The notes under the pieces were generated by a model. The model was not told where the DNA came from and ran no database searches. It saw only the letters and a program-made list of their open reading frames with translations. A DNA stretch of 64,000 nucleotides from Candidatus Nitrosopelagicus sp. (GTDB lineage: Archaea; Thermoproteota; Nitrososphaeria; Nitrososphaerales; Nitrosopumilaceae). Numbering within the stretch: the stretch's first letter is position 1; the number at the start of each line of letters is the position of its first letter. A program made the position numbers and the translations under genes. Below, one piece after another: positions 48,982 to 63,992 of this stretch. The stretch spans positions 62,001 through 126,000 of the forward strand of contig JAOMDR010000001.1 in the NCBI GenBank assembly GCA_028345575.1, given 5' to 3'.

Positions 48982-49824
48982 CTATTCTTTTAACATCACT
49001 GCATTTCTTGCCTGTCTTTTACCTGCAGGTGTAATCTTCCATTTTACCTTACTTTCATTAATTTTAATCACAAATTTTTCTTTAGTATATCCATCTGATC
49101 CAATTATAGTCTTTTTTACACATTCTTCTACTCCATCAATTTTTTCTACATAACCTTTTTTTCTCAATTCTGAAATTACATATGTCAATTTGGTTGCACC
49201 TTGCTGCCTCTTTCTTGTTCCATATTTGATTTCTTTTTTCAACTTTAGTTTTTGCAATAATTCTTGATTTGTTATGACTCCTTCCTCTTCAATCATTTTT
49301 TTCTTATTTTTGAGATTTTTTACTATAAATCTACTTTTTGAGATAATATTCAAAACCTTTTGTTGAGTATCATTCATTTTTACAATTCCAATACTTGGTA
49401 TTGGTAATTCTCTAACATAGCTCTTTTGACCAGGATTCTTATCACGATTCAAAACATAGTATGCTTTTGTTCCAAGCAACATTGCTGATAAAATTGCACC
49501 TGATGCCATAACGTTAGTTCCACCAGTTACATTAATGGCAAATTCCTGTCTTAACACGTCTTCTTCAATTGAAACAATATCGGTAATTGCATCCATTGTA
49601 TCATCCATCCCAAACGGATTATCTATCAAATATTGTTCAACCTCAATTGCAGCATAGTCTTTTTTTAATTTCTTTGCCAAGTCTCTAGCATTTTTTACAA
49701 AATCTATTGTACCCTCTTTTTTCTTACTGTGAATTAACCAAATCTTTGTTACAGGTGTTATTTCTCTAAGCCACTCTTCCACATGTTTTGTCTCTTTACC
49801 AATTGGTGCTATATGTACAACCAT
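48982..49824 (-). CDS. CARF-like N-terminus plus wHTH transcriptional regulator (DUF6293/HFX_2341-like), regulator 1
   Basis: VVHIAPIGKE..; FAINVTGGTNVMASGAILSAMLLG; C-terminal wHTH (TKLTYVISELRKKGYVEKI). Confidence 0.75.
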   Translation of the reverse strand: MVVHIAPIGKETKHVEEWLREITPVTKIWLIHSKKKEGTIDFVKNARDLAKKLKKDYAAIEVEQYLIDNPFGMDDTMDAITDIVSIEEDVLRQEFAINVTGGTNVMASGAILSAMLLGTKAYYVLNRDKNPGQKSYVRELPIPSIGIVKMNDTQQKVLNIISKSRFIVKNLKNKKKMIEEEGVITNQELLQKLKLKKEIKYGTRKRQQGATKLTYVISELRKKGYVEKIDGVEECVKKTIIGSDGYTKEKFVIKINESKVKWKITPAGKRQARNAVMLKE

Positions 49825-49827
49825 TTA

Positions 49828-49846
49828 CTACAAAATAATTTTGTAG
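49828..49846. promoter_or_regulatory. operator-like palindrome, motif 1 copy 1 (CTACAAAATAATTTTGTAG)
   Basis: Perfect 8-bp inverted repeat 3 bp from the regulator ATG; TTAAA 7 bp downstream on plus strand. Confidence 0.75.
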
Positions 49847-49890
49847 TCTTCAATTAAAAGCATTACTTTCATGACCAGGCTATATTCTAT

Positions 49891-50697
49891 ATGGAAAATA
49901 AGAAAATTACAGAATTCGTTCACGTTGATGAAAGTAACGAAGAAAAAATCTCAACAAAAATCACAATCCAGTCATTTGAAAATGAAATTCAAGAAATTGA
50001 TGTTCCAAAGGGAATTGTCACTTTCTTAGGTTCAAAAAATGGTAAAAAAATTCCATATTTGACAAAGAATCGATACTCCGTTTCAGATTTAGTACATTGC
50101 CAAAGAAAATCTCTATACAAACAATTAGGATTAAAACAAGAACAGCTAGTTCAAGATCTTTCAATTGAACAAATGTGGTCAACTGTTAGAGGAAATTTCT
50201 TGCATCAAATGACCAATGCATATGATTGGAATGAACTTGAGATGCAGTATAAGGTTAATCTGAAAGATGGCAAACAAGCCACACTCCATGGTAGACTTGA
50301 CATGTATGATTGGAAGACAAAAACAATCATGGATTTGAAAAGTGTTCCAAATCTACGACATCAAGTCAAGCATGGATTTATACCAAAACTCCAGCATATT
50401 TTGCAAGTCCAATGTTATGGAACAATGTTTGAATCATACATACCAATTGAGAATCTAAATCTCATTTATGTTGATAATAATGACATTGTCACTTACAAAA
50501 TTCAAAAAAGAGACATGGCAGATTGGATAAAAACACGAATTCAAGAAATTGAAGATGCTTGTGTCTCAAAACAAATCATAACAGGTGAACCAACCGGATT
50601 ATGTCAATTTTGTAAATATCAAACAAAATGTTATGCTGATGAAAATGGAATTACACATACACCACTATCTGTTCCAAAAGGAGGACGATACAATTGA
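49891..50697 (+). CDS. Cas4-like PD-(D/E)XK nuclease with Fe-S cysteines
   Basis: GNFLH; HGRLDMYD; IMDLKS; QVQCYGTMFE; one N-terminal Cys (VHCQRKS) plus C-terminal CQFCKYQTKC. Confidence 0.8.
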   Translation: MENKKITEFVHVDESNEEKISTKITIQSFENEIQEIDVPKGIVTFLGSKNGKKIPYLTKNRYSVSDLVHCQRKSLYKQLGLKQEQLVQDLSIEQMWSTVRGNFLHQMTNAYDWNELEMQYKVNLKDGKQATLHGRLDMYDWKTKTIMDLKSVPNLRHQVKHGFIPKLQHILQVQCYGTMFESYIPIENLNLIYVDNNDIVTYKIQKRDMADWIKTRIQEIEDACVSKQIITGEPTGLCQFCKYQTKCYADENGITHTPLSVPKGGRYN

Positions 50698-50786
50698 TCT
50701 TTTTGATTATTGCATTATCTGCATTTCTGATCTGTTCAGGAATTGTAAAACCAAAAAAAATTATGGAGGCATACTTTGGAAAGTAA
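50694..50786 (+). CDS. 30-aa TM micro-ORF (TTG start; MIFLIIALSAFLICSGIVKPKKIMEAYFGK)
   Basis: Overlaps upstream stop and downstream start in an operon. Confidence 0.45.
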   Translation: MIFLIIALSAFLICSGIVKPKKIMEAYFGK

Positions 50787-51795
50787 ACAAATCACCTCAT
50801 TAAATGAGACCACAATTCCAACTGCTGTCATAAATTTTGATGAATATGATCCTCGAACAATTGATGTTTGGGAAAACTATATCTCAATAAATGAAGAAAA
50901 AGAACGAGCCACACAAATTATTTTGGATGCTACTAGTCCATTTCTAATTGAATCTGAAAAAGGTCAAGGAAAAACACTATTGATACATACAATTTGTAAA
51001 GAAAACAACATTGCTCTAATAGAAGAGCAAGTTGGACCTGGCACAAGAAAAACAGATCTTTTTGGTTCAAAGGAAATCAATAATGATGGAACCCTGTTTA
51101 ATCTTGGAATTTTCCCAAGAGCAATAGAGGTTGCCAATCATTTTGGTCATGCGTGCCTATATTGTGATGAGGGAAATACACAGGATCCTGAAACACAAAA
51201 ACTTTGGAATAGAATTTGTGATGATCGAAAATCAGTCTTTATCAATGGTAAAAATTACAAATTAAACCCAAACTGCAAATTGTCTGTAGTTTGGACTACA
51301 AATCCTGCCTCATATGTAGGAATTAATTCAATGCCTGAAGATTTAAGATCAAGATTCATTGGTGAAATCTGGAAATATCCTTCTCCTTTACAAATTAAAA
51401 AAGTAATTGACTGGCAAAAAATCTATAATGATTGTATAAATCAAAATGTAAATCCATCTGATGGAATTTCACATTCATCACAAAATCAAGTAACAGTTGC
51501 AATTCCAAATGAAATTAATGAATTAGTAGAGGAAATGCTATTTCCTGGATTAATTATTTTCATTCAAGATATTCATGCACTTAGAATGAAGGGTGATGTT
51601 GAATATTCATTATCAATAAGAGACATTAATCAATTTTTCAATCAATTTTTTAAAAACACATTTAAAAATCCAAATTCTAAAAATATACTTCAACAAACAT
51701 TTGCTCAAGTAATATTATTCAAATTTGAAGATCCGGCTGAAAGAGAACTCATCAAAGTAAGAATTCAAGACACATTTGGAGTAAAATTAAAATGA
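50776..51795 (+). CDS. MoxR/CobS-like AAA+ ATPase
   Basis: Walker A SEKGQGKT, Walker B CLYCDEGN, sensor-1 VVWTTNP, LRSRF Arg finger. Confidence 0.8.
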   Translation: MESKQITSLNETTIPTAVINFDEYDPRTIDVWENYISINEEKERATQIILDATSPFLIESEKGQGKTLLIHTICKENNIALIEEQVGPGTRKTDLFGSKEINNDGTLFNLGIFPRAIEVANHFGHACLYCDEGNTQDPETQKLWNRICDDRKSVFINGKNYKLNPNCKLSVVWTTNPASYVGINSMPEDLRSRFIGEIWKYPSPLQIKKVIDWQKIYNDCINQNVNPSDGISHSSQNQVTVAIPNEINELVEEMLFPGLIIFIQDIHALRMKGDVEYSLSIRDINQFFNQFFKNTFKNPNSKNILQQTFAQVILFKFEDPAERELIKVRIQDTFGVKLK

Positions 51796-53582
51796 AAATT
51801 GATCGAAATTTAATTTCTGAAATTGACTTGTTTGAAAAATCAATAGATATTGTTGAATTTGCATCAAATTCAAAAATTGATTTACAAATTGTCAAAGGTG
51901 AAAACTGGTGCACCTTTCAGGGAATTGATAAAAAAGATTCAAAAAAGCTATATACAATCAGTTTATCTTCGTCACGTAAAACTGCAATTCCAATTTATAC
52001 TGCACTAATCCATGAATTGGGACACATACTTTACGAAACACCATTTACACCAATAAAAAAATTATTGAAGAGTAAAAAATCACAATTACCAAAAACAATT
52101 ACAAGTTCACCAATATCTGCAGAACAAAAACCAAAAATTTCTTCAGAGCAACTATATCACAAAGTTTTCAATGTATTAGAAGATCAAAGAATTGAATCAC
52201 AAATTAGTAAATCATACTTGGGACACAAAAAAAGATTTGAAAAAACAAGATATAATCTTGGAAAGGCTGGATTTGGAGAATTTGCTGATTTTGAAAATCC
52301 AGTATTTGCATTATTAGCAATACGATTTATGCGTGATGATATTGTAAAAAACACAAAATATTACCAGATTTACAAAAAGGCATTAGAGGATGTAGAGGAA
52401 ACTGATCGTTTTGGAGCATTAAGAGTTCTAATTTCAATTAAAAAATACATTGACGAGTACTTGTCAAACCTAGAATCATCTCAAAAACCAAATTCTACTG
52501 GCTTTCCAGATTCACCTAGTACACTCGATGATAAACATCTGAAAGATATGGTGCAACTATCCCAAGAACTCGAAGAAAAACGTGAACAATTACTTCATGG
52601 CAATCTTCCCCCAACAATTAGGCACAAATCACCAGATTTTCCAATACCTCCTGAATTACAAAAATCTAATTTTTCTGAGGATGAAATTAAAGAAATCATT
52701 CAAGATGGAAAAAAACAGGGTGAAGAACAATTTCAAAATATACAGAATAAGCTAACCAGCAGACCTAGACTTGACAACACCCTTTCAAATGTTAAAAAAA
52801 TTTTACGTCCATCTTGTAATTATGAAATTGACAGAAAAATAGCAAAAGGAATGAATAAAGTTTTCAAATTATTAAAATTACGATCTAAATCATTCATTGA
52901 TATTTCTGGAACTCAAATTAATGTAGATGAATATATTGAGAATATTTCTAAAGGAACAAATCTTAATCGATGTTATGAGAACAGTAAATCTGCACATGGT
53001 GCATCAATAGTTATTTCAATTGACGCATCACTTTCTATGCACGATGAAAAAATTATAACTGCAAGAAATTTAGTTGCAACACTTTTTGAATCAATAAAAG
53101 GAATACCAAATATGGAACTTCGTGGAAACATATGGAGTAGTCATGGTTCTGGGTTAATTGGTATTACAGAAATTAATAATATCAAAGATGTTAAACAAAT
53201 ATCTGTCAGAAGAAACTATAACTTGACACCTCTTCATATGGGATTAGAGTATTCAATGAAAATGCTCAAAGAAATGCGAGGTACAAACAAATTATTAATT
53301 TTAATTACTGATGGCCAACCAAACTATTACAAAAATTATAATTTAGTACCAGATAACATATACAACAATCAATGTAAAAGATCTCTACAAAAAGTATTAA
53401 AGATAACACCCAATGTAATCTGTTTCTTGGTTGGCAAAGAAGATAATAATATAAAAAAAATAATGACAGACATTTTTACCTCTAAAAGATTTATTATAGT
53501 TCCAACTATGAAAAAGGCCTCTCAAAACACTATTGAAAAATTTAGACATTTTGTAATAAAAAATGTCCAGAATGGAGTATGA
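51792..53582 (+). CDS. CobT-like protein: N-terminal HEXXH metallopeptidase-like domain plus C-terminal VWA domain
   Basis: ALIHELGHILYETPF, NVLEDQRIE; MIDAS IDASLSM, LTPLHMG, LITDGQP. Confidence 0.8.
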   Translation: MKIDRNLISEIDLFEKSIDIVEFASNSKIDLQIVKGENWCTFQGIDKKDSKKLYTISLSSSRKTAIPIYTALIHELGHILYETPFTPIKKLLKSKKSQLPKTITSSPISAEQKPKISSEQLYHKVFNVLEDQRIESQISKSYLGHKKRFEKTRYNLGKAGFGEFADFENPVFALLAIRFMRDDIVKNTKYYQIYKKALEDVEETDRFGALRVLISIKKYIDEYLSNLESSQKPNSTGFPDSPSTLDDKHLKDMVQLSQELEEKREQLLHGNLPPTIRHKSPDFPIPPELQKSNFSEDEIKEIIQDGKKQGEEQFQNIQNKLTSRPRLDNTLSNVKKILRPSCNYEIDRKIAKGMNKVFKLLKLRSKSFIDISGTQINVDEYIENISKGTNLNRCYENSKSAHGASIVISIDASLSMHDEKIITARNLVATLFESIKGIPNMELRGNIWSSHGSGLIGITEINNIKDVKQISVRRNYNLTPLHMGLEYSMKMLKEMRGTNKLLILITDGQPNYYKNYNLVPDNIYNNQCKRSLQKVLKITPNVICFLVGKEDNNIKKIMTDIFTSKRFIIVPTMKKASQNTIEKFRHFVIKNVQNGV

Positions 53583-53588
53583 AAGAAA

Positions 53589-54236
53589 TTGGTATTACCA
53601 CTTTTAATAGGACTTGGTTTACTTGCAATTCTATATGTTGTATACATTGCAGTACTTCATTGGTACATTACAATTCCGATAGTTGTTATCATCCTTGTAT
53701 ACTGGAATAGAGGCAATATTGCACAATGGTCTGAACAAAGAAGATTACGGAAGCAAGATATTGCTGAACGAAAGGAGCGTGAAGAACGTGCAAAAATCAT
53801 TCTTGAAGAAAAAAGACTAGAACGCATTGAATGGCAAAAACGTCAGGCACAAAAAGAGAGGAAATTTTGGGATGATATCAAGAAGAAATTAGAAGATCAA
53901 AAAATTGTACAGTCGGCCTTACCTGATTATACAATCAAGCACAATCTAAAACCTCGACAAACAAAGAGGAAATCCCAAAAAACGCTTCAAGATGCTATGA
54001 GAGATGCATTTCAACCGCAATTTGAGAGAAAATCGACTCTTGGTATCAAAAAATGCTATAAAATTTTAGGACTAAAACCTGAAGCTTCTGTTTTACAGGT
54101 TCAGTTTAGATTTAAGGAATTGGCGCTCAAATATCATCCAGACAGAAATCTCCACAGTAAATTAGCTGTAAAAAAGTTTACAGAGATTTGTGAGGCACGA
54201 AAAATAATTTTAGAATTAATTCAGGTGGCTGTATGA
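53589..54236 (+). CDS. membrane-anchored J-domain protein
   Basis: N-terminal TM; C-terminal CYKILGLKPEAS..FKELALKYHPDRN. Confidence 0.8.
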   Translation: MVLPLLIGLGLLAILYVVYIAVLHWYITIPIVVIILVYWNRGNIAQWSEQRRLRKQDIAERKEREERAKIILEEKRLERIEWQKRQAQKERKFWDDIKKKLEDQKIVQSALPDYTIKHNLKPRQTKRKSQKTLQDAMRDAFQPQFERKSTLGIKKCYKILGLKPEASVLQVQFRFKELALKYHPDRNLHSKLAVKKFTEICEARKIILELIQVAV

Positions 54237-57761: not shown

Positions 57762-57777
57762 TTTACCTCATAAATTA

Positions 57778-57796
57778 CTACAAAATTTCTTTGTAG
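57778..57796. promoter_or_regulatory. operator-like palindrome, motif 1 copy 2 (CTACAAAATTTCTTTGTAG)
   Basis: Matches 49828-49846 and flanks; TTAAA 7 bp downstream. Confidence 0.75.
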
Positions 57797-57839
57797 TCTA
57801 CAATTAAACTTCCAATTGTTTCTTCTACCCATCTATAGT

Positions 57840-58798: not shown

Positions 58799-58984
58799 CT
58801 AAAATTCCTCTCCACAGTCATTACAATAAAATTCTGGATCGTCACCAGAAACGATACAGCCTCTTAACTGATATTTGTCTTTGTTTTTCTCTTCATCCAT
58901 TTCTTCTAAAAATTTATGATTTGGTAATCCCCAGATTAGTTGTGCAATGTTTTTTCCCTCACAGTTTGGGCAGATTTTATTCAT
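58799..58984 (-). CDS. zinc-ribbon small protein
   Basis: CPNCEGK...FYCNDCGEEF. Confidence 0.65.
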   Translation of the reverse strand: MNKICPNCEGKNIAQLIWGLPNHKFLEEMDEEKNKDKYQLRGCIVSGDDPEFYCNDCGEEF

Positions 58985-59238
58985 CTCATCTCCTCTTTAA
59001 CATCTTTAGACATGTGGTCAATTGGAGTATCAACATCATCTTCTTCAAAATTTTTGGGATCTGCTGTGATGTTTAGATTGTTGATGTTGAATGTATTTTC
59101 ATTATATTGTTTAGTTGGTTTAAAATTTTTTATTTCACTTAAGAAAAATAATACTAGTAAGAGTATTCCAATTGGTGCACCAAATCCTGTAAACAAGAAA
59201 AATATTCCAATGAATAAAAACCACATACTCATTGCCAT
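58981..59238 (-). CDS. small membrane protein
   Basis: Two hydrophobic N-terminal segments. Confidence 0.6.
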   Translation of the reverse strand: MAMSMWFLFIGIFFLFTGFGAPIGILLLVLFFLSEIKNFKPTKQYNENTFNINNLNITADPKNFEEDDVDTPIDHMSKDVKEEMR

Positions 59239-59663
59239 ATCTCCTTTTCAAGTTCTTCCTCTACCCATTTCTGGTACGTATTTCTGACACGTGTTTCTAA
59301 ATCAGGATCAATTTGTAGCATATGATCATATAGGTTCCAAAACCCAAATCCCAAATTAGCTAGTGCCGCTACAATGTATTGTCTTGGTAATGTTGCAATC
59401 TGAACTGCAATTTTTTTTGATTCTTCTATATCTTCAAACAAAAAAGCATAGAAGAATTTTTGTGGGAGCGTAACGGCACATTTTCCTGCAAAATATGTTT
59501 GTGCAAAACAATTTTTTGTTTCACACTTGCAGTTTTCGTTACAGAATTCTTTGACTAGTTCTATAGTCAATTTTTTTTCTATTTTATTCAGATCTTCAAA
59601 TTCTATTGCAGACCCAATATGGGATGAGGGGGCTTCCTCATTTTGTTGGATTGTGCCGGTCAT
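59229..59663 (-). CDS. Cys-containing hypothetical protein
   Basis: FCNENCKCETKNCFAQTYFAGKC. Confidence 0.6.
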   Translation of the reverse strand: MTGTIQQNEEAPSSHIGSAIEFEDLNKIEKKLTIELVKEFCNENCKCETKNCFAQTYFAGKCAVTLPQKFFYAFLFEDIEESKKIAVQIATLPRQYIVAALANLGFGFWNLYDHMLQIDPDLETRVRNTYQKWVEEELEKEIWQ

Positions 59664-60004
59664 CTTCTCCCCTTTTCGAACCTTCCTAGCGCTATTACCA
59701 ATCCACTGGCTGTTTGATAGTCTCTAACGAACTGAAATCCCTTATTCAGATAGTCATTTACCTCATCTTCACCATTCTTGTAGGTTTCAGGATCAAACTC
59801 TACACCAATGAACTTTACAGCCTTTAGTTCATCTTTTTTCGAGGTTTTCTCTCTGATTTTTTGACGTAGGCTTTTGATCAGTCTCTCACTTTTCTCGATT
59901 CTATCAATCATTGCTTCTTCTTTTGCTGACACTTTTTCTCCGCTAGTTTCATCAGCTTCAACGGATTCTGCAGTTTTTTCTACCATATACATCGCCAATA
60001 CCAT
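59660..60004 (-). CDS. coiled-coil hypothetical; first gene of minus-strand operon
   Basis: ORF; ATGA overlap with 59663; true start may be a downstream Met. Confidence 0.6.
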   Translation of the reverse strand: MVLAMYMVEKTAESVEADETSGEKVSAKEEAMIDRIEKSERLIKSLRQKIREKTSKKDELKAVKFIGVEFDPETYKNGEDEVNDYLNKGFQFVRDYQTASGLVIALGRFEKGRR

Positions 60005-60035
60005 TATGTGACAAAACCAATTAAATCACATGTGC

Positions 60036-60061
60036 ATAGTATGCATACTTTAGATACTATT
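60036..60061. promoter_or_regulatory. operator-like element, motif 2 copy A (ATAGTATGCATACTTTAGATACTATT)
   Basis: 22/26 identical to 61251-61276; exactly 10 bp from TTAAA (60021-60025). Confidence 0.75.
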
Positions 60062-60076
60062 AAAATAAAAAAGGGA

Positions 60077-61210
60077 TTAGAATAATCCAAGAATTTCTGC
60101 CATAACTCGTAGTTGCTCTAATGCAACTGCCTTCCAGTTTGAGGCATCTTTTTTGTATTTTTCTAACTCTGTTGTATCAACTACTTGAGATTCAAGTGTT
60201 GACATTTTTTCTCGAAGTTCTTTGTTAATTTTTGATTCTTCAAGATATTTTGTTTCACTTATGGTAGCGTTTGTTTTTAGAAGATTGATCTCTTTGACAA
60301 AATCAGTATTTACTGAAGTTACAAAGTCAACCTGTTTTTTTAGATCAATTATCTCTGTCTCTAATGGTTTGATCTTTGCATTAATTTTTTCTTCTATCTG
60401 AGTTTTGTAGCTTTTTGTTTTATCAAGTATGTCTTGTTGTTCAGTAGTTACAGTTGAGTTTGTCTGAATTGTTGGTTCAGGTTTGTTTAAAACAACTACA
60501 ACATTTTCTTGAATTCCTACCTGCTCATTTACAGTATTTGGATTAGGTAGTATAGTTATCGTACCTGTTACTCCAGATACAGAATCCATCCAGGAATAAA
60601 CACCTGCTGGATAACAACTACTACAATTTTCTACTGGGAAGTTTGCTGTGGCTGTTCCACCATTTGAACTTGCCCACATTGAAAATGTTCCACCTGTCTC
60701 GGTTCCTGTTGTTCCAGTATGTTCCAAATTATGGTATGTGACTGGATCAAGGTTATGATAAACAATTTTTCCACCCTCAAGAATTGTCACATCAAATGGA
60801 ATCTCATACACATGAACCTCCATTGTACCATTACCTGTTGTTACAGGTTTTGGTTCTGGCTCAGGTGCTGCAACTATTTGTAATTCTGAATAGTTACCCT
60901 GATTCAAATCTTTGATGTAGTAAATTCCTTCAACAAAACATGTTGTTCCACAATCTTTTGTAGGAAGTTCAATTGTCAAACTTTCGCCGATTCGGACTGT
61001 ACCATCAAACCAACCATATGCAACAAAATTCATGGTTGATGTACCATTTGTATTATTGAATGTAATTTTTCCATTTTCCATTACAGATTCATTAAATGGA
61101 AAACTGGTTACTTCAACACTAGTTGGCATCTCTTGTGCATTTACTAATGCAGTAGTTGATACTCCTAAAACAAGCATCGCTGTCATAAGAAATAGTATTT
61201 GTCTCGTCAT
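60077..61210 (-). CDS. secreted cupredoxin-like tandem-domain protein with C-terminal coiled coil
   Basis: Signal peptide; two beta domains with CGTTCFVEGIYY and CSSCYPAGVYSW; long coiled coil. Confidence 0.6.
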   Translation of the reverse strand: MTRQILFLMTAMLVLGVSTTALVNAQEMPTSVEVTSFPFNESVMENGKITFNNTNGTSTMNFVAYGWFDGTVRIGESLTIELPTKDCGTTCFVEGIYYIKDLNQGNYSELQIVAAPEPEPKPVTTGNGTMEVHVYEIPFDVTILEGGKIVYHNLDPVTYHNLEHTGTTGTETGGTFSMWASSNGGTATANFPVENCSSCYPAGVYSWMDSVSGVTGTITILPNPNTVNEQVGIQENVVVVLNKPEPTIQTNSTVTTEQQDILDKTKSYKTQIEEKINAKIKPLETEIIDLKKQVDFVTSVNTDFVKEINLLKTNATISETKYLEESKINKELREKMSTLESQVVDTTELEKYKKDASNWKAVALEQLRVMAEILGLF

Positions 61211-61250
61211 TAGTCATACTACAGGCATAAAATTCTTAAATATCATGTTA

Positions 61251-61276
61251 ATAGTATGGATACTATGAATACTATT
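61251..61276. promoter_or_regulatory. operator-like element, motif 2 copy B (ATAGTATGGATACTATGAATACTATT)
   Basis: Contains ATAGTAT-gg-ATACTAT palindrome; 10 bp from TTAAA (61236-61240); overlaps regulator 2 start. Confidence 0.75.
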
Positions 61277-62020
61277 GCTAATACTGTCAAATTACGAGTA
61301 CATATTGCACCTGTAGGCTTTGAGATTGACCGAATTATTGTTCCTGCAATAAACATGCGAGCAGACAAGGTTTGGCTAATTGGACATGCAAATTTATCAG
61401 AAGATAAGGCAAGACCTTTCTTAGACAAAATTAGAAAAACACTAGCTAAAAAAAACATTCAGGTCAAAGAGGTAACTGCTGATAGGTTTCGACTATTTGA
61501 TATTGTAAAGGTAGTAAAAGAGATAATTTTTGAAGAACAAAATAATGATGTTTATCTTAATGTTGCAAGTGGTTCCAAAATTCATGCAGTAGGAATGATG
61601 ATGGCAACAATGATTTTTGATGATCGTTCTAATTTGCATCCATTTTATGCACAAGCAAAAGAATATCATCATACAAAAATATCTGAACCACAAACCTCTG
61701 GAATTGAGGCAATTCATGATTTACCTACATATAGGATTCAAACACCTGCAAAAAAACATCTTGAAGCATTAAAAGTTCTAGTTGATAATGGTGGCAAACT
61801 AAAGAAAAAAGAGATGGCAGAAATTGCTGAAAAAGAAAAAATCATTATAATTAATGCAGAACCTGGAAATCATTCTCAAGCAAGGTTTGCTAGTCTTGAT
61901 AAAAATATTATATCCCCACTTGAAAATGAATGGAAATATATCAAAACAGAAAAGGTTGGTAGAAATAGATGGATTCATTTAACTGAAGAGGGAAAATGGG
62001 CATCAGAGTTTTTGATTTAA
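61256..62020 (+). CDS. CARF-like plus wHTH transcriptional regulator (DUF6293/HFX_2341-like), regulator 2
   Basis: LRVHIAPVGFEIDRIIVPA; DVYLNVASGSKIHAVGMMMAT; C-terminal wHTH. Confidence 0.75.
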   Translation: MDTMNTIANTVKLRVHIAPVGFEIDRIIVPAINMRADKVWLIGHANLSEDKARPFLDKIRKTLAKKNIQVKEVTADRFRLFDIVKVVKEIIFEEQNNDVYLNVASGSKIHAVGMMMATMIFDDRSNLHPFYAQAKEYHHTKISEPQTSGIEAIHDLPTYRIQTPAKKHLEALKVLVDNGGKLKKKEMAEIAEKEKIIIINAEPGNHSQARFASLDKNIISPLENEWKYIKTEKVGRNRWIHLTEEGKWASEFLI

Positions 62021-62027
62021 TATAACG

Positions 62028-62813
62028 ATGACAAAAATAATTACTATAATTACAGACTGTGACAATACCTTACTTCCAGATGCTCCAAGTTTGTTGTTAA
62101 AAGACAATGGAATTAATCCACAAGAGTTTTGGGATAAAATTTCTGACATGGTAAAAGACAAATGGGATCCACCAATTGCATGGATGACTGAACTTGTTAA
62201 TCTTATGAAGGATGGAAAGATAAAACAAAACACAAATGAAAAATTAAAAGAGTTTGGTACATCAATTGATGTTTATCCAGGAGCTGCTACCTTTATTGAT
62301 GAGATGAATGAAACTATAGGAAAAGAACTGGATGTAAAAATTGAAGGATATGTTGTATCCTCCGGAATAGAATCTATAATGAAAGGGGCAAAAATTTCCC
62401 AATCTTTTACTGACATTTTTGGAGGTTCACTTTATGAGCAAAATGGAGTAATTTCAGGCATAAAATCAAGTGTCACATTTACTGAAAAGACCAAATTCAT
62501 CTTTGCAATAAACAAGGGAATTTCCTTACAAATTAGGGAAAAACCATACGATGTGAATAATTTTATTGATTATTCTGAAAGAAGAGTTCCATTTGAGAAT
62601 ATGATTTACCTGGGAGATGGACCTAGTGACATTCCATGTTTTTCAATGATTCAACAGAAAGGTGGTCATTCTATTGCAATTGATTCAGCAGATGATTGGT
62701 CAAAGGAATGGGAATATGAGTTACGAAATAGAGAGATGAAGGCATTCAAGCCAGATTATAGACAAAACAGTGAGTTGAGAAAAGAATTAGAATCACTAAT
62801 CAGTGCTGATTAG
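62028..62813 (+). CDS. HAD superfamily phosphatase
   Basis: TDCDNTLLP (DxDxT); YLGDGPSDIPCF. Confidence 0.85.
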   Translation: MTKIITIITDCDNTLLPDAPSLLLKDNGINPQEFWDKISDMVKDKWDPPIAWMTELVNLMKDGKIKQNTNEKLKEFGTSIDVYPGAATFIDEMNETIGKELDVKIEGYVVSSGIESIMKGAKISQSFTDIFGGSLYEQNGVISGIKSSVTFTEKTKFIFAINKGISLQIREKPYDVNNFIDYSERRVPFENMIYLGDGPSDIPCFSMIQQKGGHSIAIDSADDWSKEWEYELRNREMKAFKPDYRQNSELRKELESLISAD

Positions 62814-63992
62814 ATTACTTACCATTGTTTGCAGTTCTGTCACATTGTTTTCTTTAATCAACTCTAGACAGTTATTGACATCGAGAATTTTTTGATGAAC
62901 CGTTTTTTCCTTTCTTGTTGATGTATACGTTTTGTCTGAAAGACTGTTTGATTTTGGCAAAATTGCATACGCATCATCTAATTCTTTACCCTCCATTTCT
63001 TTTCCATACTCATGCATGTAAAATCCAAGTTGATACAAATCTCCTGTTGTAAGTCCTTTATCTTTATACTTGACATCAATAATATTTTTCACATCTCCAT
63101 TTTCATCTTGTATTACTATATCTGGTCTCATACTTCTCGTTCCTTCCCCTTTTGAACTCCAAGCATCTTCACTATTTTGTATTTTCACCCAGTTTGGTTT
63201 TTCATAATATTTTAAGAAAAGATTTCCAACAAATTTTTCGAATTCTCTATTCATATCATAAAATATTGGGACAACAGAATGTTCACCGCTGTATATGTCT
63301 CCTATACCTTCATGTTCAATAAGACGCTCACATGTTTGATGAATCATTTTGTATCGATCATTTTGTCTGTTGTAACTGCGCATCATGTTCTGTCTTCTTC
63401 CTTTTGATACATTGATTTTACTTACTACACCTGAAAGTTTTTGTGCATGATCTAAGGCTTTCATCTTCCATTTTTCTATTTTCGAAGTTCTCTCAACAAT
63501 TGTCATTGCTTGTAAAAGTACTCTATTTTCCGTACTATCATATTCCAGCTCATCATATTCACAGAAAAATTTTGGTTTTCTCATTAAATCATTGACCATC
63601 TGTTGCTGAAACAATAGTTTTCCGCGAACTGCAGAAATATTTTCGGTGTTTAACACATATGACTTCAATAGTCCTTTATTCATGAGATCCTCATATCTTG
63701 TTATCAAGGTTATGTGTAATGGATGGACCAATTGGTCCGAACCTGTCTCAAAGAAATTTTTTTGTTCTTTTAAGAATTCTTTTGTTTTAATATTATTTGC
63801 AAAAAACAAAAAAACCGAAGTATCAAACCAGATTTCTGATTTATCTTTAAACATTTTAGGAACAATGTTTATTCTGCGATTAAGATTCTCAAGCTGAACC
63901 GAACCAATATTCTGGTTTGATTCAATTACTAGTGCGTCGTTATTATCAAACGAATGTTTTATTCCATATTTTTCTTTTAATTTATCAAGCAC
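62796..63992 (-). CDS. McrC-like restriction component, N-terminus possibly cut by window edge
   Basis: INIVPKMF; RGKLLFQQQ; MRPDIVIQDENGDVKNIIDVKYKDK (PD-(D/E)XK). Confidence 0.8.
   Translation of the reverse strand: MLDKLKEKYGIKHSFDNNDALVIESNQNIGSVQLENLNRRINIVPKMFKDKSEIWFDTSVFLFFANNIKTKEFLKEQKNFFETGSDQLVHPLHITLITRYEDLMNKGLLKSYVLNTENISAVRGKLLFQQQMVNDLMRKPKFFCEYDELEYDSTENRVLLQAMTIVERTSKIEKWKMKALDHAQKLSGVVSKINVSKGRRQNMMRSYNRQNDRYKMIHQTCERLIEHEGIGDIYSGEHSVVPIFYDMNREFEKFVGNLFLKYYEKPNWVKIQNSEDAWSSKGEGTRSMRPDIVIQDENGDVKNIIDVKYKDKGLTTGDLYQLGFYMHEYGKEMEGKELDDAYAILPKSNSLSDKTYTSTRKEKTVHQKILDVNNCLELIKENNVTELQTMVSNLISTD

Follow-up and report, generated by a model that had tools for sequence, protein, structure and literature searches.

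What is the role of two nearly identical sequences that accompany the gene of a putative ligand-sensing regulator in the genome of an ammonia-oxidising archaeon of the family Nitrosopumilaceae? The sequences lie in a stretch of 64,000 nucleotides (hereafter the window) from Candidatus Nitrosopelagicus sp. (assembly GCA_028345575.1, contig JAOMDR010000001.1, positions 62,001 to 126,000). Copy A (60036-60061) and copy B (61251-61276), both read on the plus strand, are identical at 22 of 26 positions with a lag of 1215, and copy B overlaps the 5' end of a plus-strand gene (61256-62020) for a protein combining a CARF domain with a winged helix-turn-helix (wHTH). We consider it likely that the two copies are operators of this adjacent regulator and form part of a family-wide promoter module, with activation, autorepression and ligand switching included in this picture.

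Each copy contains three half-sites with a 9-bp period: ATAGTAT (61251-61257), ATACTAT (61260-61266) and ATACTAT (61269-61275) in copy B, and the segments 60036-60042, 60045-60051 and 60054-60060 in copy A, where the middle one is degenerate (ATACTTT). On the minus strand a TTTAA core follows each copy after exactly 10 bp, at 61236-61240 for the gene starting at 61210 and at 60021-60025 for the operon starting at 60004; the two cores fall in a TATA column conserved among the 136 copies described below. Read in reverse, the 61236-61240 box (TTAAATAT) may be a promoter element for the regulator. A preliminary description of the window, made from the sequence alone, had reported the two sites, their ATACTAT/ATAGTAT-like half-sites and the 10-bp spacing. 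Sequences and coordinates were exact, the half-sites are as described apart from the degeneracy in copy A, and the spacing proved to be a rule among copies elsewhere. The reported overlap of copy B with the regulator start stands for the open reading frame at 61256, but the true start is probably the ATG at 61265, because many orthologues begin directly after the operator and two (L014 and L107) have an in-frame TAG inside it.

Taken alone, without comparative data, the A/B pair is suggestive and only moderately unusual, since pairs of 26-mers with at least 22 identities within 1.3 kb number seven in the window versus zero or one in six Markov simulations. No further copy was found in the window or in the 1.10-Mb, 86%-complete assembly; the pattern used for the window scan was built from copies A and B, so that its zero chance expectation is post hoc. 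We accept the match as real because, across 1.87 Mb of related loci, a 25-bp matrix identified 136 distinct copies, whereas the reversed sequence gave none; the matrix was trained on 20 operators, of which most lie within the scanned set. Eighty-eight of the 136 copies are located at regulator starts and 48 elsewhere. Further copies in a genome form clusters no more than about 10 kb away from the regulator.

Read on the strand opposite the regulator, the operator has the consensus ATAGTAT-GT-A[TC]AGTAT-GC-ATACTAT, followed after about 10 bp by a TATA box (TATAATAA) and, about 22 bp further, by the ATG. Ninety-two copies have this ATG 39 nt away from the operator edge and 24 have it at 40 nt (116/136); among the 48 copies away from regulators, 39 have it at one of these two offsets and nearly all others within 37-44. 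At every target the operator precedes the TATA box without covering it, and the information in the 136 copies is concentrated in the half-sites and the TATA box. As read from these alignments, operator, TATA box and ATG are one fixed, predicted leaderless-promoter module reused by unrelated genes. Some copies are flanked on their opposite side by an RNase_H_2 exonuclease gene, whose start falls at offset 39 or 48, two values that differ by one half-site period. A CATG element beside the TATA box was considered as a further part of the operator. The 4-mer is rare in the other promoters of the window (3/73), but its exact form occurs in only 35 of the 136 copies over the stretch counted, although 81 have ATG at offset 4.

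Does the operator follow the regulator across species? Nearly every orthologue with at least about 45% identity carries it where the regulator gene starts, and in several of them it ends just before the ATG. Related operators occur at the starts of the divergent paralogues L027-L029, and no clear copy was found at the more divergent homologues L025, L026 and L031. The distant paralogues L086, L087 and L088 have a degenerate version, with GATACTAT half-sites, at their start. We also scanned 252 Nitrosopumilaceae genomes, using patterns with mismatches instead of the 25-bp matrix, and the operator recurs in 90 of them: 79 contain both motif and regulator, 11 the motif only, 35 the regulator only and 127 neither (Fisher p=1.5e-25, odds ratio 26). 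A control pattern read backwards gave single matches in a few genomes only. The preliminary description had proposed looking for conservation upstream of orthologues and for covariation with the regulator, and both are borne out by these counts.

The most frequent predicted target, driven by 60 copies, is a microprotein of 24-44 amino acids whose end is conserved (FFPRIIREFDD..DEPM.YGG; other lineages have YPRVRSVFE), encoded divergently from the regulator in L126 (9310-9441), L112, L114, L075 and other loci. Its codon-position diversity (0.08/0.03/0.44 and 0.09/0.11/0.31) is concentrated at the third position, which indicates that the predicted reading frame is translated. Sixteen copies drive a predicted PIN nuclease, and the other predicted targets include family c13 (60004-like genes), secreted proteins such as family c21 (61210-like genes), tiny zinc ribbons, c35, DUF7220 and a short reading frame before NurA. 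The same islands hold a metallo-beta-lactamase nuclease, the RNase_H_2 exonuclease, EVE-GmrSD and UvrD-PDDEXK. Operators accompany c13 genes in genomes G008, G002, G010, G024 and G029 and c21 genes in G217, G138, G141 and G029, in line with the initial assignment of the two window copies to the 60004 operon and the 61210 gene. The preliminary description, confined to the window, had given no sign of regulation and could not reveal the multi-copy regulon, the microprotein or the constant ATG distance. Gene order also varies between loci: c13-operator-regulator in G008 (L004, L032) versus c13-operator-c21-operator-regulator in the window and, in another genus, c35-operator-regulator (L120) versus c35-operator-c21-operator-regulator (L112). 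Gene cassettes appear to enter with their own operator and promoter.

NurA-HerA-Mre11-Rad50 is linked to the operator more loosely than the other targets. In L114 (5682-12174), a single operator is followed by nurA, herA, mre11 and rad50, the last three named by eye from sequence, with the regulator just beyond. In this locus, as in L122, L123 and L129, the operator lies about 150 bp before the accessory nurA-herA-mre11-rad50 genes, with a conserved frame of 27-30 amino acids in between. The operator of this cluster is kept in some regulator-less genomes.

The regulator itself matches PF19810 (HFX_2341_N, the CARF domain) at its N-terminus with 119.5 bits, against a gathering score of 30, and PF22665 (DUF6293_C, the winged helix) at its C-terminus with 82.4 bits against 27. 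Its best PADLOC model is PDLC01847 of the CARF3 group, matched over the full length (E 1.9e-72). Using an AlphaFold2 model (mean predicted local distance difference test score 89.7), Foldseek retrieved CARF proteins including Csa3, a Csa3-cA4 structure among them (6wxq, 2wte, 6w11), with a probability of 1.00, at whole-chain template modelling scores of only 0.38-0.53; in the model, the relative orientation of the CARF and wHTH domains may differ from that of the Csa3 structures. Fold comparison alone was successful here, as a PDB sequence search with the regulator alignment A1 returned no match. A viral origin was rejected, as a scan of IMG/VR with the same alignment found no relative. In the CARF motif N102-V-A-S-G-S-K108, residues N102, G106, S107 and K108 are invariant and the third position is mostly Ala. 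The CARF pocket likely holds a ligand.

Among known systems, Csa3a and Csa3b, the CRISPR-Cas regulators of Sulfolobales, share with our protein the CARF plus wHTH architecture and the fold. In the case of Csa3a, 12 bp separate the palindrome from the B recognition element and TATA box downstream of it (PMC8699464), so that both sites are placed just upstream of promoter elements, that of Csa3a being pseudo-palindromic; overexpression of Csa3b raises nurA-rad50-mre11-herA (PMC7480081). The operators differ, however, with three ATAGTAT half-sites here and TCCC-N8-GGGA for Csa3, as do the targets, which here include the microprotein, PIN, zinc-ribbon and secreted proteins, and the regulator scores below the TIGR01884 cut-off (32.6 versus 60.2 bits). 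We saw no cas genes among the loci and targets examined, where the cas families, apart from Csm1, were not searched as such. The haloarchaeal CARF-wHTH regulator HFX_2341 shares PF19810 and PF22665 and likewise lies outside a CRISPR locus, but our regulator falls below the NF051475 equivalog cut-off (26 versus 500 bits), and no operator came up when the HFX_2341 paper was searched for motif and promoter terms. PADLOC CARF3, although the best group, is a sequence group only, with no described operator or regulon. We file the system as a variant within the CARF-wHTH kind, working like Csa3 yet with another operator and other targets, and below the Csa3 family cut-off. Our literature search found no description of an operator for this CARF-wHTH branch.

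How would such a module work? A dimer or higher oligomer of the regulator would bind the operator and act from -40 on TBP and TFB, most likely activating the gene on that side. Contact with these factors, and hence activation, is suggested because the distance from operator to TATA box and ATG is so strict in unrelated genes. At the regulator's own gene, the operator would cover the expected transcription start and thereby bring about negative autoregulation. The switch would be a nucleotide-type ligand bound in the CARF pocket of the regulator. Alternatively, the regulator could be a pure repressor that keeps TBP/TFB from loading on the target side and occludes its own start site until the ligand releases it, so that defence is kept off until needed. 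Overexpression of HFX_2341 does repress cas genes (PMC11434293), the covered start site at the regulator gene agrees with such a role, and nuclease targets would plausibly be harmful if constantly on. Yet a steric repressor needs no uniform distance to TATA box and ATG such as 116 of the 136 copies display, and the operator leaves the TATA box itself free at every target. The strict spacing suggests contact with the transcription machinery rather than simple blocking, and we regard pure repression as rather unlikely, though worth keeping in mind.

Several observations weigh against operators of an activating, ligand-switched regulator. HFX_2341, the only studied PF19810 protein that we found, is reported to act as a global repressor (PMC11434293). 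The motif of CARF domains binding cyclic oligoadenylate (cOA), (D/N)-X-(S/T)-X3-(R/K) (PMC8844856), is met only in part by N-V-A-S-G-S-K. No Csm1-family Cas10 scored above cut-off in the 252 genomes, hence no known cOA source, Cmr2-type Cas10 not having been searched; weak Csm1 matches did not extend past about position 190 of the 753 in the model. Type III CRISPR as the source of the ligand was set aside on this result, within the same limit. Some of the 11 genomes with a motif and no detected regulator are incomplete or have a break at the operator. In G111, G121, G157 and G201, however, completeness is 92-99% and an operator precedes nurA; no PF19810 protein was detected in these four or in G117. 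The operator does not track the regulator at accessory nurA, because it is found there in 8 of 20 regulator-bearing and 7 of 10 regulator-less genomes; covariation at this gene was tested and not found. The tie between operator and regulator drawn in the preliminary description holds for overall co-occurrence but is not fully borne out at seven NurA loci, which carry the operator in genomes where no regulator was found. Such genomes either have a second reader of the motif, lost the regulator only recently or contain one that escaped detection.

Could the motif be read by another transcription factor altogether, with the CARF gene as one target that often travels in the same island? This would account for the operators before nurA in nearly complete genomes lacking PF19810 proteins, and for regulator-bearing genomes with no recognisable copy. 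However, the operator overlaps the regulator's own start in 88 copies, a usual sign of autoregulation, related operators mark the starts of L027-L029, and both the strong co-occurrence and the proximity of extra copies to the regulator argue against a separate reader, which we hold to be improbable. It is a good deal harder to believe that the copies chiefly mark recombination or insertion sites at the edges of mobile cassettes, with a secondary regulatory role. Copies A and B are direct repeats bracketing exactly one gene, absent in G008, and the c21 insertion recurs beside c35 in another genus, but boundaries would explain neither the fixed register with TATA box and ATG, nor the concentration of information in half-sites and TATA box, nor the single copies at most regulators. 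The last possibility is chance similarity or a constraint imposed by the N-terminal codons of the regulator. In its favour, a pair of sites matching at 22/26 within 1.3 kb is only moderately unusual, and copy B does overlap MDTMNT codons. We give this explanation practically no credit: chance is refuted as the origin of the motif by the 136 copies, 48 of them away from regulators, against none in the reversed control, and coding constraint is ruled out as the cause of copy B by elements kept out of frame or containing a stop (L014, L107).

In the window, operator B is predicted to serve the minus-strand gene 60077-61210, divergent from the regulator, whose ATG lies 40 nt from the operator and which encodes a secreted protein of 377 amino acids with a signal peptide (family c21); the same arrangement is found in G217, G138 and G141. 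Beyond it, four small minus-strand genes form an operon (60004-58799) predicted to be served by operator A. The first (59660-60004; 114 amino acids, family c13) has orthologous operators elsewhere and probably starts at its fifth codon, at 59992 and 43 nt from operator A, because its orthologues start there. The second (59229-59663; 144 amino acids, no assigned function) and the third (58981-59238; a small predicted membrane protein of 85 amino acids) have homologues in other operator loci, and the fourth (58799-58984; a zinc-ribbon-like protein of 61 amino acids) has homologues in 29 of 130 related loci. In the best explanation, the regulon of the window would be small, comprising the regulator itself, the secreted protein and the 60004 operon.

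Downstream of the regulator, on the opposite strand, McrC (PF10117; type IV restriction) occupies 62796-63992 at the window end, where its partner would fall outside. A second PF19810 CARF regulator, with no PF22665 detected, lies in the region 48982-54236 beside a PD-(D/E)XK/Cas4-like protein, an AAA ATPase, a VWA protein and a DnaJ protein, in what looks like a separate defence-type operon. It is adjoined by motif 1, ACTACAAAATAATTTTGTAGT, a 21-bp palindrome at 49827-49847 with a second copy at 57777-57797 (two mismatches). The layout of the operator pair had been described as mirroring that of motif 1; the layouts are indeed analogous, but motif 1 is an unrelated palindrome and not the same element.

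What is the regulon for? Its predicted outputs are nucleases, a conserved microprotein, a secreted protein and small proteins of zinc-ribbon and membrane type, sometimes with a type IV restriction enzyme close by. They suggest a role in defence or in the response to DNA damage that does not depend on type III CRISPR. Tentatively, and with somewhat more doubt than belief, we picture a CRISPR-independent immune or DNA-damage regulon in which a CARF second-messenger sensor activates swappable cassettes (nucleases, restriction, zinc-ribbon proteins and sometimes HerA-NurA-Mre11-Rad50) through one fixed module, with the undescribed 24-44-amino-acid microprotein as its commonest output. The regulon bears on the question of what this CARF-wHTH branch does outside CRISPR. 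With a 25-bp operator and a fixed promoter geometry, the regulon of any Nitrosopumilaceae genome may be read from its sequence, which provides testable targets, among them a conserved microprotein likely missed by standard annotation. It also suggests that archaea lacking a type III CRISPR system can still couple nucleases and repair genes to CARF signalling.
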